Positions 1 through 26,033 of a stretch of 64,000 nt of DNA are shown piece after piece. The notes beneath the pieces are model-generated. The model was not told the DNA's origin. It ran no database searches and was given only the letters and a program-made list of their open reading frames with translations. The translations under genes and the position numbers were made by a program. The stretch is taken from contig NZ_BSNQ01000003.1 in NCBI RefSeq assembly GCF_030160075.1, positions 1,244,556 through 1,308,555 of the forward strand, in the 5' to 3' direction. Position 1 is the first letter of the stretch. Each line of letters begins with the position of its first letter. The stretch is from Dyella lipolytica. Lineage in GTDB: Bacteria > Pseudomonadota > Gammaproteobacteria > Xanthomonadales > Rhodanobacteraceae.

Positions 1-275
1 TCCATGTACGCGTAATTGTCCGGGATCTCCAGACAGATCACGCGCTTGCCATCCAAGTAGGCCTTGAATTTGGCTGAGAGCTTGGAGCGATGAGCACGCT
101 CCATGACGAAGATCATGTCAGCCCAGTTCAGTAACTCGGGAGTGACGGGCGTTTCGGCGCCATTGTTTAAGCCAGCCGAACGAGTTTCGATCCCGGGCCA
201 ATCGGCAAAGACCTGCTCAGCCGTGGGGCTGCGTAGCCGGTTCTGGCTGCAGATAAAAAGTATGTTACGAGCCAA
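1..275 (-). CDS. Low-molecular-weight protein tyrosine phosphatase-like protein (3' end outside window)
   Basis: The first 91 codons are present and the gene runs off the left edge without a stop. The start of the protein carries the LMW-PTP phosphate loop CX5R(S): Cys9 to Arg15 within ICSQNRLRSPTAE. It continues with the features of the short (about 110 residue) LMW-PTP-like family, including a WADMIFVME segment and a KRVICLEIPD strand. TTG at 275 is taken as start because AGGAA lies 5 nt upstream and no ATG fits the conserved N-terminus. The start is only 13 nt past the attC end at 289, as expected for an integron cassette gene. Family members are predicted phosphotyrosine phosphatases of unknown substrate. 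Confidence 0.8.
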   Translation of the reverse strand, partial: MARNILFICSQNRLRSPTAEQVFADWPGIETRSAGLNNGAETPVTPELLNWADMIFVMERAHRSKLSAKFKAYLDGKRVICLEIPDNYAYM

Positions 276-288
276 GATTTTTCCTGCG

Positions 289-347
289 GTCTAACGCCTG
301 AGTTAAACGGCGTGTGTATGCGCGTCCGCTTGGGCGAATAGTTAGGG
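289..347 (-). other. attC recombination site (59-base element)
   Basis: Read on the minus strand, the segment begins with R'' CCCTAAC (341-347) and ends with R' GTTAGAC (289-295), the latter an exact GTTRRRY core. Between them are L''-like CCCAAGCGGACGC and L'-like CCGTTTAACTCAGGC. Length is exactly 59 bp and the layout closely resembles attC sites of aadA-type resistance cassettes as I remember them. The TAA stop of the upstream small membrane protein gene lies inside R'' and the next gene starts 13 nt after R', which is the standard cassette arrangement. Confidence 0.85.
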
Positions 348-596
348 GCGTGCCGATAACCAAATGCCGACGACATCCCCCGTTGCAGCTAAAACGCCGA
401 CGAGTACTGCGCCAACCGTTGTCGATAGCGACCATTGGGAACGGATACCCGTAGCTAGTGCGATACCGCTTGCGATGCCGAAAGCAGGCCAGAGTTGGAC
501 GCCATGAGGCACAAAAAAGCCGAACATATACATGGCCGCAAGGACACCTACGAGAGCACCCGCAAACGCCTTACCGACGGAAACTAAGAGTCGCAT
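342..596 (-). CDS. Small hydrophobic membrane protein, probable integron cassette gene
   Basis: 84 residues with about three hydrophobic segments (roughly 8-30, 33-50 and 60-81) and almost no polar surface, so an inner-membrane protein of unknown function. Start chosen at 596 because AGGAG sits 5 nt upstream; an in-frame ATG at 611 lies inside that Shine-Dalgarno region. The TAA stop (342-344) is embedded in the R'' core of the attC site. Local base composition is less GC-rich than the housekeeping genes further right. No family recognised. Confidence 0.7.
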   Translation of the reverse strand: MRLLVSVGKAFAGALVGVLAAMYMFGFFVPHGVQLWPAFGIASGIALATGIRSQWSLSTTVGAVLVGVLAATGDVVGIWLSARP

Positions 597-609
597 TTCA
601 TCTCCTTCC

Positions 610-656
610 ATCTAAAGTCTGAGTTAAAGCGCGTACGGTGATAAATTGAGTTGCGG
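610..656 (-). other. Degenerate attC-like site
   Basis: On the minus strand the right half GCTTTAACTCAGACTTTAGAT closely matches the L'/R' half of the intact attC at 289-347. The R' core reads TTTAGAT, so the G that should precede the recombination point is T. The left half is poor (CCGCAAC at 650-656 as possible R''). It lies 13 nt upstream of the start of the 84-residue gene, where an attC boundary is expected. Probably a decayed, perhaps inactive, site. Confidence 0.5.
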
Positions 657-682
657 TCCTATCCATAGTGTGGGAAGACCTC

Positions 683-1168
683 ATGCCAAGTGAACTGATT
701 GGAACATCGGCCCTCAGCATTGCTGCCCTAATCTCCATCGTCCTAACCATGTTGCGTCACCCTCGCTGGACAGACACCGTCAGCATCGAACGCGTTTCGC
801 GAGTCTTTTTGTTCGGCCTAGCTGCCCAGTGTCTGCACTTCATGGAAGAGTCACTGACGCATTTTCCTGTACGGTTACCTGAGCTTCTGGGCCTTCCGCC
901 TTGGCCGGATGACTTCTTCGTTGTATTCAACTTGCTATGGCTCGCTGTATGGATTCTATCGTCCATCGGACTGCGTGCCGGCTATCGCGTAGCGATGTTT
1001 CCTATCTGGTTTTTCACCATCTCATGCCTCGTCAACCTAATCGCCCATCCCATCCTGTCGCTCGCCGTCGGTGGATATTTCCCAGGCCTGCTGACATCGC
1101 CTCTGGTGGGCTTGTTCGGGGTGTGGTTGGTGATGCGGCTGATAGCGCTCACGCGGCCATCGCGTTGA
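683..1168 (+). CDS. HXXEE domain membrane protein, probable cassette gene in reverse orientation
   Basis: 161 residues. His52, Glu55 and Glu56 in QCLHFMEES form the H-x-x-E-E signature of the HXXEE family, integral membrane proteins with a proposed metal-binding active site and no known substrate. Four to five hydrophobic segments follow (about 8-24, 40-52, 83-100, 108-128, 137-157). Start at ATG 683, with GGAAG 5 nt upstream, rather than GTG 668. It is the only gene in the 1-1552 stretch on the plus strand, opposite to the attC sites, which is unusual but known for cassette genes with their own promoter. Confidence 0.7.
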   Translation: MPSELIGTSALSIAALISIVLTMLRHPRWTDTVSIERVSRVFLFGLAAQCLHFMEESLTHFPVRLPELLGLPPWPDDFFVVFNLLWLAVWILSSIGLRAGYRVAMFPIWFFTISCLVNLIAHPILSLAVGGYFPGLLTSPLVGLFGVWLVMRLIALTRPSR

Positions 1169-1183
1169 GGGCTCAGTGGTGGT

Positions 1184-1237
1184 GATTCAGACAAGTTGAA
1201 GGGTGCCCGAGGCGTCCGCTTGAATGGTTAGTTAGGC
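1184..1237 (-). other. Partial attC-like site with intact R'' half
   Basis: On the minus strand it opens with a perfect R'' core GCCTAAC (1231-1237), followed by CATTCAAGCGGACGCC, the typical L'' half. The right half is degenerate: ACCCTTCAACTTGTCTGAATC occupies the place of L'/R' but has no GTTRRRY core. The TAA stop of the 106-residue gene on the minus strand is inside R'', as in the intact site at 289-347. Confidence 0.6.
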
Positions 1238-1552
1238 ACCTTGCTTGAGCGCGCCATATGAACGAAAAAGCAATGAGACTCCCCAAATGCCGAGCGCTGC
1301 ATACAAGATGTAGAGCACCGCAGAAGACAAATAGATAAACGTATACCAAGGTCGCACAGCTGGTAGAAAGGCAGGAATAGTAACGGCAAAAAACGACAAC
1401 AATGCAGTTATGGTTGATAACGTCAGGATAAGAAAACTCTTGTGATGGTGCTTAGAGTAGGCGTGAAGTTGTAGCCAAAGCAGCGCGCCGGCGTTACACA
1501 GGGTGGCAGCTAGCATCAAGTAACTTGCGATATGGATCGCATCCGTATTCAT
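1232..1552 (-). CDS. Small membrane protein, probable integron cassette gene
   Basis: 106 residues with three strong hydrophobic segments (about 8-30, 40-62 and 70-95), so an integral membrane protein. Start at ATG 1552 with AGAAGGG upstream; a longer in-frame reading exists but has no ribosome-binding signal. The stop codon is embedded in a GCCTAAC attC core. The stretch is strikingly AT-rich for this window: 22 G+C in the 60 bases 1381-1440, against 38 of 60 at 2101-2160 in hutU. No family recognised; foreign origin is inferred from composition and attC context. Confidence 0.65.
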   Translation of the reverse strand: MNTDAIHIASYLMLAATLCNAGALLWLQLHAYSKHHHKSFLILTLSTITALLSFFAVTIPAFLPAVRPWYTFIYLSSAVLYILYAALGIWGVSLLFRSYGALKQGA

Positions 1553-1605
1553 TGCCCTTCTCCCTGAAGCGCGTAACTCTAATTCGACCCCCAAAAATGA
1601 GACAT

Positions 1606-1629
1606 CGCGTGGTGCAATAACGCCACGCG
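1606..1629. repeat. Short inverted repeat CGCGTGG/CCACGCG
   Basis: Seven-base arms (1606-1612 and 1623-1629) with a 10-base loop, in the 178-bp gap between the last cassette-like gene and the hutU terminator. No T-run follows on either strand, so not an obvious terminator. No integrase gene or recognisable attI was seen in this gap. Confidence 0.3.
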
Positions 1630-1668: not shown

Positions 1669-1700
1669 AAAAAATTACACCCTCAAAAATGAGGGTGTAA
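1669..1700 (-). terminator. Rho-independent terminator of hutU
   Basis: Perfect 10-bp stem TTACACCCTC/GAGGGTGTAA (1675-1700) with a 6-base loop. On the minus strand it is followed by six T residues (1669-1674). It starts 31 nt past the hutU stop. Confidence 0.85.
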
Positions 1701-1730
1701 TGGCTTACTAAATGGCGTGTGGCCGACGAT

Positions 1731-3401
1731 TCAAATCATCGGCAACTTGAGCCCCTGCTCCTTCGCGCACTGCACGGCGATGTCGTATCCCGCATCAGCA
1801 TGACGCATCACGCCCGTACCCGGATCATTCCACAGTACGCGCGCAATACGCTTGTCCGCCGCCTCGGTGCCATCGCATACGATCACCACGCCGCTGTGCT
1901 GGCTGTAACCCATGCCGACGCCGCCGCCGTGATGCAGACTTACCCACGTAGCGCCACCGGCGACGTTGAGCATGGCGTTCAGCAGCGGCCAATCGCTCAC
2001 TGCGTCGCTGCCGTCTTTCATGGCTTCGGTTTCACGGTTGGGGCTGGCCACGGAGCCGGAGTCGAGATGATCGCGACCGATGACGACGGGCGCTTTAAGT
2101 TCGCCCTTGCGCACCATTTCGTTGAAGGCCAAGCCAAGCTTGTGACGCTGGCCCAGGCCGACCCAGCAAATACGCGCGGGCAAACCCTGGAAGCTGATGC
2201 GCTGTTCGGCCATGTCCAGCCAGTTGTGCAGGTGCTTGTCGTCGGGGATCAGTTCCTTCACTTTGGCGTCGGTCTTGATGATGTCTTCCGGATCGCCGGA
2301 TAGCGCGACCCAGCGGAACGGACCCACGCCGCGGCAGAACAGCGGACGCACGAACGCCGGCACGAAACCGGGGAAATCGAAGGCGTTGGCGCAGCCTTCG
2401 TCTTTCGCCATCTGGCGGATGTTGTTGCCGTAGTCGAAGGTGGGAATGCCTTGCGCGTGGAAGGCGAGCATGGCTTCCACGTGTTTCTTCATGGATTTCT
2501 TGGCGGCGTCGCGCGTGCCTTGCGGATCGCTCTTGCGACGCTCGAACCACTGCTCCACGGTCCAGCCCTGCGGCAGGTAGCCGTTGACGGGATCGTGTGC
2601 GCTGGTCTGATCGGTGACGGCATCGGGCTTCACGCCACGGCGCACGAGTTCGGGCAGTACATCTGCAGCGTTGCCGAGCAGCGCAATGGATTTCGCTTCG
2701 CCGGCCTTGGTGTATTTGGCGATGCGTGCGAGTGCGTCGTCGAGATCGGTGGCTTGTTCGTCGACGTAACGCGTCTTGAGGCGGAAGTCGATGCTCTTCT
2801 GCTGGCATTCGATGTTGAGCGAGCACGCGCCGGCCAACGTGGCAGCCAACGGCTGCGCGCCGCCCATGCCGCCGAGACCCGCGGTGAGAATCCACTTGCC
2901 CTTCAAGCTGCCGTTGTAGTGCTGGCGGCCCATTTCCACGAAGGTTTCGTAGGTGCCTTGCACGATGCCTTGCGAGCCGATGTAGATCCACGAGCCCGCC
3001 GTCATCTGGCCGTACATCATCAGGCCTTTCCTATCGAGCTCGTTGAAGTGTTCCCAGTTGGCCCAGGCCGGCACCAGGTTGGAGTTGGCGATCAGCACGC
3101 GCGGCGCATCGGGATGGCTCGGAAATACACCGACCGGTTTGCCGGATTGCACCAGCAGGGTTTCGTCGTCGTTGAGGTCGCGCAGGGCGCGCAGGATGGC
3201 GTCGAAGCACTCCCAGTTACGCGCGGCGCGGCCGATGCCGCCGTACACCACCAGTTCGGCCGGGTTCTCGGCCACGGCTGGGTCCAGGTTGTTCTGGAGC
3301 ATCCGGTACGGGGCTTCGGTGAGCCAGCTTTTGCAGGTGAGCTCGGTCCCGCGCGGGGCGTGGATGATACGGGTGGTGTCGATGCGGGTGGGGGCGTTCA
3401 T
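1731..3401 (-). CDS. hutU: Urocanate hydratase
   Basis: Converts urocanate to 4-imidazolone-5-propionate, step 2 of histidine catabolism, using tightly bound NAD+ in the cytoplasm. The 556-residue length is standard. GLGGMGGAQ at 175-183 is the NAD-binding glycine motif. Cys412 in LPARICW corresponds to the catalytic cysteine (Cys410 of Pseudomonas putida). Start at ATG 3401 is preferred over upstream in-frame ATGs because AGGAAT lies 4 nt before it. It stands alone: hutH, hutG and hutC are not adjacent, while hutF and hutI lie 15-21 kb away. A strong terminator follows. Confidence 0.96.
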
Positions 3402-3511
3402 CGGAATTCCTGCAACTGCCATGGGAAAGTCCCAATTATGGTCGCCCCGTTTCATGGCCGCCAACTGCGGTGCGGCAAAAAAGCGTGCCCGCGGGTAGCT
3501 TCGGGAGCCAA

Positions 3512-11720: not shown

Positions 11721-13013
11721 ATGAAATGGTTGTCCCGCTTTCTGCTCTGTTCGTTCATCGCCCTCAGTGCCGGCTGCGTTTTTCTACACACCACGTCCAC
11801 ATCGCCTGCGACAGCGGCGCAGCAAGCAAAAGCGGCATCCACTACGCCGCTGCTGCTGATCTCCATCGATGCCTATCGTGCGGACTACATCAACCGCGGC
11901 CTCAGCCCTACCCTGCAGGCTCTCGCCGCAACGGGAGTGCACGCCGATTCGATGCAGCCTGCGTTTCCGTCGCTGACGTTTCCTAACCACTACGCTGCCG
12001 TCACAGGCTTGGTGCCGGACCATAGCGGCATCGTCAACAACACGATGGTCGATCCGGAACTGGGCAAGTTCTCGCTGAGCGATCGCAAAGCCGTGAGCAA
12101 TGGATTGTGGTGGGATGAGGGCACACCGCTGTGGGAGACCGCGGATGCGCATGGTCTGCGCAGCGCCACGATGTTCTGGCCCGGTTCCGAGGCGGATATC
12201 CAGGGTTATCATCCGGATTTCTGGAAGCCTTACGACGGCAAAGTCACCGCGGATCAGCGCGTGGATCAGGTACTGGCCTGGCTGGATCTGCCACCCGGTC
12301 AACGGCCCAGCTTCATCACGCTGTATTTCGATGCTGTCGACCATGCCGGCCACGAGCACGGCCCGGATTCGCCGCAGGTCAACCAGGCGCTGCGCGATAC
12401 CGATGCCGCCATGAGCCGTTTGGTCGACGGTTTACGTCAACGCAACCTGCTCGATCACATCAATATCATCGTGATTGCCGATCACGGCATGGCCACCGTG
12501 CCGCCGGAGAACAACGTGCTTATCGACAAGCTGATTCCGCTGAAAGATGTGGATACGGTAAGCCTGGGCGTGCTGGCTGGCTTCAATCCCAAGCGCAAAC
12601 ACGATTTCAACGCCATTGAAGAACAGCTGGAGCAGCCGCAGCAACACATGCACTGCTGGGACAAGACTCGCGTGCCCAAGCGTTTCAATTACGGCGCCAA
12701 CGCACGTGTGCCGCAACTGATCTGCCTAGCCGATGTCGGCTGGCGCATTACTACCGAAGACTACCTGGCCAAGCACAAAGGCAAGCTCAGCATCGGCGAG
12801 CACGGCTACGACAACGCCGATCCGCTTATGCAGGCACTGTTTGTCGCCCACGGTCCGGCATTCCAGAGCGGCATCCGCTTCCACAACTTCCCGATCGTCG
12901 ACGTCTATCCCTTGATGGCGCACCTGCTCGGCGTTCCGGCGAATTTCAACGATGGCCATGTTGAAGACGTGCAGGGAATGCTGAAACCCGAAGCAACCGC
13001 TACGACGCAGTAA
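11721..13013 (+). CDS. Nucleotide pyrophosphatase/phosphodiesterase (NPP) family lipoprotein
   Basis: 430 residues. Signal peptide with lipobox LSAG-Cys19, so membrane-anchored and extracytoplasmic. Alkaline-phosphatase-superfamily core: Asp50 in LLISIDAYR binds metal, Thr86 in PSLTFPNHY is the nucleophile, followed by YFDAVDHAGHEHGP and IADHGM metal ligands and a late GEHGYDN. This matches NPP enzymes known from Xanthomonas, which cleave phosphodiester or pyrophosphate bonds in nucleotides. The exact substrate cannot be read from sequence. ATG 11721 chosen because it opens the lipoprotein signal; longer in-frame readings run through the repeat element. Confidence 0.88.
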   Translation: MKWLSRFLLCSFIALSAGCVFLHTTSTSPATAAQQAKAASTTPLLLISIDAYRADYINRGLSPTLQALAATGVHADSMQPAFPSLTFPNHYAAVTGLVPDHSGIVNNTMVDPELGKFSLSDRKAVSNGLWWDEGTPLWETADAHGLRSATMFWPGSEADIQGYHPDFWKPYDGKVTADQRVDQVLAWLDLPPGQRPSFITLYFDAVDHAGHEHGPDSPQVNQALRDTDAAMSRLVDGLRQRNLLDHINIIVIADHGMATVPPENNVLIDKLIPLKDVDTVSLGVLAGFNPKRKHDFNAIEEQLEQPQQHMHCWDKTRVPKRFNYGANARVPQLICLADVGWRITTEDYLAKHKGKLSIGEHGYDNADPLMQALFVAHGPAFQSGIRFHNFPIVDVYPLMAHLLGVPANFNDGHVEDVQGMLKPEATATTQ

Positions 13014-13027
13014 CCCGCTTCACGCCG

Positions 13028-13048
13028 CTCTCCCCTCTTTGGGGAGAG
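13028..13048. repeat. Solitary CTCTCCCC/GGGGAGAG hairpin
   Basis: Eight-base arms with a short T-rich loop, between two convergent genes. It resembles a single end-hairpin of the long palindromic elements without the rest of the unit, and may act as a bidirectional transcription stop. Confidence 0.55.
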
Positions 13049-13071
13049 CGAGCGATCGACGCTTTCGATCT

Positions 13072-14358
13072 TCACGGCATCGCGCCCTTGCTCATCGGTG
13101 TAGGCGGAGTGGTGAGCTGCGGCAGCGGCTGCACGCGATACAACCACAGCGCGATGAATAAGCCGACCAAAACCAGCGCACCGACAAACAACGCTACACC
13201 GTTCCAGCCGTGCTCGGCGTAAAACAGCCCACCGCTCGCGCCGGCCACGCTCGAACCCATGTAATAGCTAAACAGATACATCGACGACGCCTGCGCCTTG
13301 GCCGCACCACCGCGCCGCCCCACCCAGCTGCTGACGATCGAATGGCCGCCGAAGAAGCCAAACGTGATCGCGGTGATGCCGAAGATGATCAGCCACAACG
13401 ACGTCATCATCGTGCAGCCCACACCGAACAACATCAGTGTGAGTGCGGTCCACAACACTTTGCGACGCCCCAACTTGCCTGCAAGATGTCCCATCCACGC
13501 CGAACTGAACGTACCGACCAGATAGATACCGAAGATCAGGCCGACCACCGTTTGACTAAGACTGTAAGGCGGCGCCAACAGGCGATAACCTAGGTAGTTG
13601 TAGACGGTGACGAACGCACCGAGCAACAGAAACCCTTCCGCGAAAAGCCACGGCAAACCCGCATCGCGGAACATCCCGGCGAAGCGACCGAATAGTGCGC
13701 GCCATTGCAAGGCTTGCGGATGGAAGTGACGCGATGCAGGCAACGCGCGCCAGAACACCAGCCCGGAAACGAGACCGACCGCGCCGACAACACCGACGCC
13801 GACGCGCCAGCCGAAGTAATCCGCCACGACGCCTGAAATCAGCCGGCCGCTCATGCCACCCACCGCACTGCCGCTGATATACAGACCCATGCCGAGACCG
13901 ATCGACTCGGCGTGCATTTCTTCGCTGAGATAGGTCATCGCCACGGCCGGCAAACCGCTGAGCGTGAGGCCAAGCAAGGTACGAATGGTCAGCAACGCGT
14001 ACCAATTCGGCATCAGTGCGGTCAGCAAGACCAACACTGCCGAGGAAAGCAGCGAGGCCACCATCACCGACTTGCGCCCCCAGGCATCCGATACGCCGCC
14101 GGCGAACAGCATGGCGAAGGCCAGCACGCCGGTCGTCAATGACAACGACATGGCGCTCGCCGCGGCGCTGATGCCGTAGTGCTGACTGAACTGCGGCATC
14201 AGCGGCTGCACGCAATACAACAAACCGAACGTGGCGAAACCGGCGGCAAACAGCGCCAGGTTGGTACGTCGGAATGCCGGGGTGCCGTGACGGATCAGGT
14301 CTTCATCGGTCCAGGCCATCGGCTTAGCGGGCGATTCGTCGGAGATGCTTGTGTTCAT
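13072..14358 (-). CDS. MFS transporter, YnfM-like exporter
   Basis: 428 residues with about twelve transmembrane helices. The motif-A loop DAWGRKSVM between helices 2 and 3 and its repeat GHLAGKLGRRKVL in the second half identify the major facilitator superfamily. Overall pattern (FATFGLLYCVQPLMP, TYLSEEMHAESIGLGMGLYISG) matches the YnfM/arabinose-efflux type of drug-like exporters; substrate unknown. ATG 14358 gives the usual cytoplasmic N-terminus. Confidence 0.88.
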   Translation of the reverse strand: MNTSISDESPAKPMAWTDEDLIRHGTPAFRRTNLALFAAGFATFGLLYCVQPLMPQFSQHYGISAAASAMSLSLTTGVLAFAMLFAGGVSDAWGRKSVMVASLLSSAVLVLLTALMPNWYALLTIRTLLGLTLSGLPAVAMTYLSEEMHAESIGLGMGLYISGSAVGGMSGRLISGVVADYFGWRVGVGVVGAVGLVSGLVFWRALPASRHFHPQALQWRALFGRFAGMFRDAGLPWLFAEGFLLLGAFVTVYNYLGYRLLAPPYSLSQTVVGLIFGIYLVGTFSSAWMGHLAGKLGRRKVLWTALTLMLFGVGCTMMTSLWLIIFGITAITFGFFGGHSIVSSWVGRRGGAAKAQASSMYLFSYYMGSSVAGASGGLFYAEHGWNGVALFVGALVLVGLFIALWLYRVQPLPQLTTPPTPMSKGAMP

Positions 14359-24600: not shown

Positions 24601-25545
24601 TCAGTGGTGATGGTGGGCGTTACAGCCAGGGCCTTCGTCTGGGCAGTCACCCGGGTCGATCTGGATGGTGGCGTGCCGGATGCCGAAGCGATCCAGCAGC
24701 GTCCGGTTCACCGCGGCGAGTACGCGCGCGCCGTCGCCTTGATCATGCAGCTCGACATGCAGCGTGGCCATGCGCGACCCGGACGCGAGCTGCCAGACGT
24801 GTAGATGGTGTACATCGCGGATCGATGCATCGGCACCACGCAACGCAGCTTCGACTTCATGCGGGTCCATCCCCTCAGGCACGCCTTCGAGCAGGATGTG
24901 AGTAGAGCGACGCAGCAGCTGCCATGCGCTGCTCAGAATCAGCAGCGATACCAGCAGCGACAGCGCCGGGTCCGCCCAATTCCAACCCATCCAGCGTACG
25001 GCGAGCGCGGCAAGCACTGCGCCGACGGAACCCATCAGATCGCCCAGCACATGCAGGCTGGCCGCGCCGAGGTTCACGTCGTCATGCGCATGACCGTGCA
25101 GGCTGCGAAGCACGACGAGGTTCACCAGCAGTCCCACCAGAGCCACACCGAGCATGACGCCAGAAAGAATCTGCACCGGCTTGAAGAGTCGCTCGACGGC
25201 CTCGTAGGCGATAAATCCGACCAGCACGAATTGCGTCAGCGCGTTCACGAAACCGGCCAGCACTTCCATGCGGCCGTAACCATACGTGCGCCGCGCATCG
25301 GCGGGACGCCGCGCCATGCGCACGGCGAACAGGGCAAGCATGAGCGCCAGCGCATCGACCAGCATGTGACCGGCATCGGCCAGCAGGGCCAGCGAGCCGG
25401 ACCACCATCCGCCCACCACTTCGGCCAGCATCATGCCCGCGGTCAGCACGAACGCGAACAGCAGCTTGCGCTCGCGACCGACCGTCCCCGTCGCGTGGGA
25501 ATGATCGTCGTGATGGTCGCAGGCGTGGCTGTGCGCGTGATTCAT
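24601..25545 (-). CDS. Cation diffusion facilitator, zinc exporter type (CzcD/ZitB)
   Basis: 314 residues with six transmembrane helices and a His-rich N-terminus (HAHSHACDHHDDHSH) and C-terminus (NAHHHH). Zinc site residues are in LADAGHMLVDAL (helix 2) and LHVLGDLMGS (helix 5). A cytoplasmic C-terminal domain (DIRDVHHLHVWQL-like, ASIRDVHHLHVW) follows. Exports Zn2+ or Co2+/Cd2+ in exchange for protons. It lies 56 bp downstream of the MerC-like gene on the same strand and near zur, so zinc is the likely substrate. Confidence 0.93.
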   Translation of the reverse strand: MNHAHSHACDHHDDHSHATGTVGRERKLLFAFVLTAGMMLAEVVGGWWSGSLALLADAGHMLVDALALMLALFAVRMARRPADARRTYGYGRMEVLAGFVNALTQFVLVGFIAYEAVERLFKPVQILSGVMLGVALVGLLVNLVVLRSLHGHAHDDVNLGAASLHVLGDLMGSVGAVLAALAVRWMGWNWADPALSLLVSLLILSSAWQLLRRSTHILLEGVPEGMDPHEVEAALRGADASIRDVHHLHVWQLASGSRMATLHVELHDQGDGARVLAAVNRTLLDRFGIRHATIQIDPGDCPDEGPGCNAHHHH

Positions 25546-25601
25546 TCGACAATGCTAGAAAGCGGTGCAGCCGTTACACAATCACTGCGCATTTAAAGCG
25601 T

Positions 25602-26033
25602 TCAGTGTGCGCATTGCGCGCTGTGCACGTGACTGTGCAGTCGATGGAGTCGGAGATTCACGAAATGCGCGCTGGCTAACAGCAAACCGCCGCAAGTCAC
25701 CAGCACGCTGTGCAGGATGATCGAGTAGTTTTCGGCAAACGTAACGCCGACCACCAGCAGGGTCAGGCCTGGAAGAGCCAGCCGCAGCGGAAGCGATCGA
25801 TGGTGCCCGCGATAGCCGTTGACCAGCGCGAACAAGGCGAGCGCGCTGGCGCAAAGCACGAAACCGCGCTCGAAAGCGTGGTCGGCAAGAAAACTCAGCC
25901 CGAGCAGTGGCAGGATGGCGAGCACAAACGGCAGCAAGGCGCAGTGGATTGCGCAAAGGAACGACGCGGTCGCGCCGACGCGATCGGCCAGGTTCCACCA
26001 GCGGAATGATTGAGACGTTGGCGTGGGATCCAT
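25602..26033 (-). CDS. MerC-domain membrane protein
   Basis: 143 residues, four transmembrane helices. ATASFLCAIHCALLPF carries the two-cysteine motif (CAIHC) of MerC mercury transporters. The C-terminus is His-rich (RLHRLHSHVHSAQCAH). No other mer genes are nearby; instead it sits in front of a CDF exporter and behind zur, with a Zur-box-like palindrome 44-63 bp upstream of its start. A role in zinc movement across the inner membrane is therefore more likely than mercury resistance, but this is inference. Confidence 0.85.
   Translation of the reverse strand: MDPTPTSQSFRWWNLADRVGATASFLCAIHCALLPFVLAILPLLGLSFLADHAFERGFVLCASALALFALVNGYRGHHRSLPLRLALPGLTLLVVGVTFAENYSIILHSVLVTCGGLLLASAHFVNLRLHRLHSHVHSAQCAH

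Follow-up and report, generated by a model that had tools for sequence, protein, structure and literature searches.

The cassette array beside hutU in Dyella lipolytica (G000) is probably a satellite integron platform that was loaded in trans by an IntI encoded elsewhere, and that is a fossil in the present genome. Such a platform would comprise an attI and a cassette array located between hutU and a convergent amidohydrolase gene, without an integrase of its own, and cassette circles would have been inserted at G/TT of the hutU attI by IntI from another chromosomal locus. The structure is established: the attI is identified, attC sites follow it, intI is absent, and the sequence past the junction changes between species. 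The junctions suggest that IntI acted in trans, and the platform may derive from a copy of a complete integron.

The array in and beyond the window

The window, namely the whole stretch of 64,000 nucleotides that was analysed (C3:1244556-1308555 of a 4.05-Mb genome in nine contigs), contains the array at its left edge (Table 1), and the DNA to the left was covered as L006, L007, and L008. As the preliminary description had noted, four small genes of lower G+C lie here, three on the minus strand and one on the plus strand; the G+C content is 54-55% in positions 1-2000 versus 57-65% in the remaining 1-kb bins of the window. The 59 bp at 289-347 (minus strand) read CCCTAAC...GTTAGAC and form an exact attC, whose R'' contains the stop codon of the 342-596 ORF and whose R' is followed 13 nt later by the next start codon (TTG, at 275), in full agreement with that description.

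Table 1. Elements of the array in the window, listed from hutU leftward
Feature	Position	Strand	Remarks
hutU (urocanase), right-hand anchor	1731..3464	-	From the ORF list; 94% DNA identity over 600 nt to G011
Intrinsic terminator of hutU	1674..1701	-	12-bp stem and T run
Orphan attI, ...GGGGTCGAATTAGA followed by GTTACGC	1573..1608	-	R' core 1571-1577; resembles intI-adjacent attI of G008, G009, G010
Cassette 1, 106 aa	1232..1552	-	Hydrophobic by eye; no Pfam match
Cassette 1 attC, left half only, R'' GCCTAAC...AAGCGGACGCC	1205..1237	-	By eye; right half missing
Cassette 2, reverse-oriented HXXEE-family gene, 161 aa	683..1168	+	PF13787, E 2e-5
Cassette 2 attC, decayed right half, R' mutated	606..640	-	By eye; same position in G011; below model threshold
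Cassette 3, 84 aa	342..596	-	Hydrophobic by eye; no Pfam match; stretch 96% identical in G011
Intact attC	289..347	-	59.8 bits, E 7e-14
Cassette 4, low-molecular-weight phosphatase-like, 110 aa	1..275	-	PF01451, E 7e-6, residues 5-47 only

A covariance model (R1) was built from 19 attC sites adjoining intI in G009, G010, and G011, none of them from G000, and was run on the window plus 40 kb leftward (104 kb), in which the 289-347 site was the first match (E 7.1e-14). A second match (L007 19869-19924, 50.0 bits, E 4e-11) and a third, weak by itself (L007 19441-19532, 14.9 bits, E 0.35), lie left of the window; these further attC sites bear out the earlier suggestion, made from the window alone and together with the proposal of such a search, that the genes are integron cassettes and that the array runs leftward. 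In the seed alignment of the 19 sites, 90.9% of the cells pair, versus 31-39% with the partners slid; a shuffle control for R1 is weak because the seed sites are so alike. Folded as single-stranded DNA, the 289-347 site shows a modest gain over shuffles (z -1.55 on the plus and -0.96 on the minus strand), the next attC leftward stands out more clearly (z -2.88, plus strand), and two attC sites further left fold no better than shuffles (z 0.67 and -0.05, minus strand only). An Rfam scan of the window gave no match over gathering. The array has what defines an integron array, namely attC sites with R''/R' cores and a hairpin between genes (59.8 and 50.0 bits). Some of the local attC sites are decayed and were found by eye only, as might be said of chance repeats around ordinary small genes; the probability of that explanation is negligible, since a model derived from other genomes gave E-values of 7e-14 and 4e-11, which refute it, and attC sites and cassettes are common to relatives.

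Cassette 4 extends 57 bases past the left edge of the window, and beyond it, at L007 18.9-19.9 kb, lie two cassette genes (109 aa and 140 aa) and three attC-like sites, of which one, a decayed attC near L007 18922-18993, was found by eye only. From attI (about 1573-1608), the array extends leftward over about 2.6 kb and ends near L007 18.9 kb. The suggestion that the window holds the edge or distal end of an array has to be reversed: because the attI sits at the right end, the end in the window is the proximal one, with the distal end some 1.1 kb to the left of it. Both attC sites that flank the plus-strand HXXEE gene are decayed. The half attC at 1205-1237 has no R1 match, and G011 retains a GTTAGAT end at the same position, with a weak model match (L044 1139-1168, 21.3 bits); given this ordinary end, the right half was most likely deleted in G000. 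For the same reason, an arrangement in which the HXXEE gene would lie inside one attC loop was rejected, since the ordinary end in G011 precedes that cassette.

Where the array ends on the far side, L007 18758-18814 (57 bp) is a relic of the 3' end of hutU (91%), in hutU orientation. Its surroundings have no match in any other Dyella genome, and among 20 stretches compared downstream of hutU, other hutU relics occur only in G012 and G016; such relics may record how islands enter the hutU spot. Past the array, a three-gene cluster (L008 3148-5128; window -3408 to -1428) encodes an unknown protein of 240 aa, a DUF5343 protein corresponding to PADLOC PDC-M34A (E 1.5e-18), and a Hypoth_Ymh protein corresponding to PD-Lambda-3_B (E 1.6e-16), and is thus a candidate defence cluster; in a DNA search of the 15 other Dyella genomes, the hutU-relic part alone had matches. 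Within the window, local AT skew is strong at 13001-14000 (0.30) and 25001-26000 (0.27), the top 1-kb bins.

attI, integrase, and cassette turnover in Dyella

The bases ahead of cassette 1 (...CTCATTTTTGGGGGTCGAATTAGA followed by GTTACGC) match the stretch that separates intI from the first cassette in G008, G009, and G010 (...TTTTGGGGTCGAATTAGA followed by GTTAGG). The pattern match is at G000:C3:1246128-1246149, i.e., window 1573-1594 on the minus strand, with two mismatches, and in blastn the hutU-attI stretch matches intI loci over 22-31 bp (90-95%, E 3e-5 to 7e-7). For the six Dyella genomes with a comparable hutU locus, the post-hutU stretches match intI-linked attI over 22-41 bp (82-95%, E 3e-5 to 5e-9) in five, and that of G003 gave no blastn match. 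A 22-mer from intI-linked attI, with three mismatches allowed, found eight sites in 16 Dyella genomes, all with two mismatches or fewer: adjacent to intI in G008, G009, and G010, adjacent to hutU in G000, G008, G009, and G011, and one in G013, at a locus that retains only a short 5' stub of intI (by eye). The reversed 22-mer found no site in these genomes. The layout in a third genus (another family of the same order) supports the identification as attI, because an inverted repeat is followed there by a core like TCTACTAAGA/GTTAG, the site lying 209-212 bp from the start of intI at 10 of the 16 loci with intI; in the other six, the distance is 217 bp in one and 236 bp in another, one has a site at 180 that is class-1-like by its motif, and three contain no GTTAG, GTTGG, or GTTAA within 420 bp.

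An origin by off-target insertion, in which IntI would have placed cassettes in an ordinary attI-like chromosomal site (attG), has been published as one proposed origin of attC clusters (PMC8618304), and the three isolated attC sites elsewhere in G000 may be of this type. At hutU, it is very unlikely. An attG is a non-attI chromosomal site joined to a cassette, whereas the hutU site matches intI-linked attI over 22-41 bp in five genomes; the 22-mer, with up to three mismatches, is confined in 16 genomes to the intI, hutU, and G013 loci; the near-empty G005 hutU locus lacks the motif; and no attI motif was seen at hutU in species with no history of an integron.

By its sequence, the hutU array thus has an attI at its proximal end, as a complete integron does, without the adjacent intI, none being found within 1.5 kb upstream. 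The absence of an integrase, which had been noted for the window, holds for the whole G000 genome, in which no intI exceeds the cut-off of the TIGR02249 profile (best score, 75 bits versus 265). Across the 16 Dyella genomes, intI over the cut-off is present in four and in none of them at hutU, with hutU and intI of G008 on different contigs. In G008 and G009, a locus other than hutU carries an intact intI together with the same attI; G010, on the contrary, has a cognate intI and attI, yet no attI at hutU, which counts against the satellite-platform reading. The intI of G011 is of a different type and frameshifted, and both G000 and G011 lack a cognate intI. This second type of integron integrase (L157 9160-10097; G011 C14) is about 50% identical to the first and is open in G010 at C10. 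Between hutU and attI, no intI remnant was seen. The intI start in L154 and L155 has 11-18 bases (TTACACCCTCA...) in common with the hutU terminator, a match that is not significant (E 0.05-0.66) and is probably due to chance; it could have aided rearrangement.

The G000 genome contains at least 20 attC sites at E 1e-3 or better, the genome-wide counts being lower bounds because 150 first-look candidates were scored per genome: 13 at C9:894652-899506, two at hutU, two at C2:89057-89651, and three single ones. The C2 flank shares synteny with two loci, the intI locus of G009 and the G013 locus that has attI but no intI, and the C9 flank shares it with the intI loci of G008 and G010. Where the latter have intI, attI, and a first cassette, the C9 array (L174 8600-8710) starts directly with an attC, which, judged by this synteny, is a loss of the integrase end. 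G000 thus seems to retain three former platforms but no integrase, and since no intI over the family cut-off remains, these platforms are now fossils.

The loss of both intI and attI at C9 also bears on a simpler explanation, that of a plain degraded integron, which would once have been complete at hutU, exchanged its cassettes in cis, and lost intI by independent deletion in each lineage. Loss of intI evidently occurs elsewhere, and intI-less loci of a second genus share a leader with intI loci, as described below. Nevertheless, no intI over the cut-off was found at hutU in any of the 16 Dyella genomes (with the contig separation in G008), and six of them (G000, G011, G008, G009, G013, and G003) have an alignable, intI-less spacer of 152-218 bp from the hutU stop codon to the attI, which is clear in the first four of these genomes and degenerate in the last two. 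While this spacer aligns across the six genomes, the 559 bases past the junction differ in all of them, the only matches being 22 bases of an attC (G008/G009) and 40 bases from the cassette that comes next (G000/G011); accordingly, the DNA following the attI in G000 (cassette 1) is unlike that at the five other loci. The lack of intI at hutU therefore looks ancestral. A shared intI-less spacer with differing downstream DNA, also found in G178/G179 (98% over 300 bp), means that the loss of intI preceded the last exchange, and we regard the plain degraded integron as rather improbable.

At hutU, attC sites follow the attI position in five of the six genomes, and none was found at the G003 locus in the roughly 2 kb covered. 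The sisters G000 and G011 have later cassettes that are 94-96% identical and a different first cassette; because both lack a cognate intI today, this difference needs an integrase that has since been lost. Among 90 intervals compared, from which G000 cassettes 1 and 6 were left out, G000 cassettes 3-5 match only in the G011 hutU array. Other hutU cassettes are common to several loci and strains, as is usual for integron arrays: in G008, c2 matches the G000 C9 array (84%) and G006 (85%), and in G009, c4 matches the G000 C9 array (89%) and c5 matches G013 (92%). A common cassette pool thus appears to serve hutU and the other integron loci, which is consistent with loading of a satellite platform in trans.

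The preliminary description had named, as findings that would speak against cassettes, a lack of further attC sites and the same four genes in all relatives. Instead, attC sites lie to the left, and the gap from hutU to the convergent amidohydrolase gene ranges from about 80 bp in G005 to 7.7 kb in G000, the extremes among ten genomes with both sides aligned. This gap (L044-L063) is variable in Dyella even where no attI was seen. The hutU gene tree leaves nine of 15 inner branches open; two changes are needed for the hutU attI, and a single origin is still compatible with it. Some points stand against loading in trans. The first cassettes could also have changed because homologous recombination brought in whole arrays, the difference between G000 and G011 needs the lost integrase, the likeness of the hutU attI covers only 22-41 bp in five genomes, the site is degenerate in G013 and in G003, the latter also having no blastn match and no attC in the part covered, and no intI stub was seen at hutU.

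attI sites with and without intI in three genera

In a second genus of the family (g18), a 34-mer gave 29 attI sites in 17 of 45 genomes, and the reversed control gave none. An intI lies upstream of 12 sites and is lacking at 17, of which 14 have attC within 1.5 kb; the intI-less sites at which no attC was found are L250 and L260 (contig ends) and L269, where the 1.5 kb covered contains none. In the third genus (91 genomes), nine sites were found, six with intI and three without, and two of the latter have arrays; L295 has no attC in 1.5 kb. Summed over the three genera, 46 attI sites divide into 21 with intI and 25 without it within 1.5 kb upstream, and these counts are samples rather than censuses, since patterns specific to one genus overlook attI that have diverged; an intI may also be hidden by the 1.5-kb limit or by a contig end. 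Left out of the 46 are the sites of G183 at C2:282358 (no intI upstream) and of G193 (contig end), and a G101 site with three mismatches was dropped because it lacks the GTT core. Incomplete intI matches of 279, 268, and 284 residues were counted as linked (two of the 12 in the second genus and one of the six in the third), and tblastn matches at E 8e-4 and worse upstream of orphan sites were taken as chance, while a 24-residue N-terminal intI stub upstream of an orphan site in G180 (E 2e-7) looks real. Both kinds of attI occur in 12 genomes (G008, G009, G177, G178, G182, G183, G184, G191, G214, G218, G311, and G331).

Four intI-less loci of the second genus share an attI leader of 200-285 bp with intI loci, and by eye the likeness takes in the very start of intI (two G177 loci, for example, share 247 bp at 91%); for this reason, they appear to have been complete platforms once. 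By their upstream flanks (79-98% identity over about 1 kb), 14 of the 20 sites without intI in the second and third genera form five orthologous groups. In 11 orthologous pairs, from which two pairs with G218 (contig end) were excluded, 33-40 of the 40 bases before G/TT are identical, and past the 7-base core 10-19 of 53 bases match, 13 being expected by chance. G178 and G179, both of which have an intact intI elsewhere, are 99% identical over the 150 bp before attI and unrelated downstream. The simplest account of these orphan attI sites would be that cassettes were inserted or removed, after the loss of intI, by an integrase from another locus, although homologous recombination may have exchanged this DNA instead. 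Over the 300 bp that precede attI, identity is 98% in G178/G179 and 77-88% in two groups. In G311/G330/G331 and in G185/G214, the identity is only 65-70%, which, for two of the five groups, counts against loading in trans, as does G330, a genome that gave no intI match at E 1e-60 and whose orphan attI has no attC within 1.5 kb.

Relation to known integrons and implications

CALINs, their mobilisation in trans, and off-target insertion are already known. With tandem cassettes bearing two or more attC sites and no intI nearby, the hutU array is a CALIN by definition, and "a cluster of attC sites lacking an integrase," as it had been tentatively called, is formally right; the orphan attI is the new part. 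The proposed origins of such clusters are off-target insertion, loss of intI, and rearrangement (PMC8618304), and CALIN cassettes may be mobilised in trans (PMC12444791; PMC9668308). The hutU array differs from a CALIN as so described in having a proximal attI at the same place in related species, with differing DNA after it. It resembles the sedentary chromosomal integrons of the Xanthomonadales in its similar attC sites (mostly 56-60 bp), an array leading away from attI, and small cassettes. In Xanthomonas, the intI of the sedentary integron lies downstream of ilvD (PMC12444791), while the hutU array is anchored by hutU and has no intI; some related genomes have more attI platforms than intI genes. 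Xanthomonas CALINs at conserved loci (lamG/secF, recD, and others) likewise hold a conserved position apart from intI, which has been contrasted with scattered attG insertion; the section that describes them mentions no attI there (PMC12444791). The Delta-attI gene cassettes of mobile integrons also carry part of attI away from its usual place, within mobile resistance cassettes as described (PMC12901181), whereas the hutU attI precedes an array at a fixed chromosomal locus.

A platform that depends on an integrase from elsewhere has a parallel in the class 2 integron, whose intI2 is defective and which is served by IntI1 in trans; that integron is a mobile element with an inactivated gene, and hutU is a chromosomal site with no such gene. 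Among the matches listed in the open-licence PMC literature (titles and starts of abstracts), there was no description of attI at CALINs or of intI-less attI before chromosomal arrays. According to the IntegronFinder 2.0 paper, detection of attI is limited to class 1, which would explain why orphan attI sites are missed.

It is somewhat probable that integrons of the Xanthomonadales often comprise one integrase serving several attI platforms, which still recruit first cassettes in trans; copies of an attI and its array would spread around the chromosome and would lose, or never carry, intI. The occurrence of orphan attI sites suggests that one integrase can load several attI sites around the chromosome, and a search for attI offers a direct sequence test for the origin of integrase-less attC clusters. 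If orphan attI sites are active, genes would be captured at several chromosomal addresses at once in these genera, and models of cassette turnover and expression would change. If several platforms are indeed served by one integrase, many attC clusters filed as remnants would be working outposts, and the presence of attI would separate such outposts from off-target insertions.
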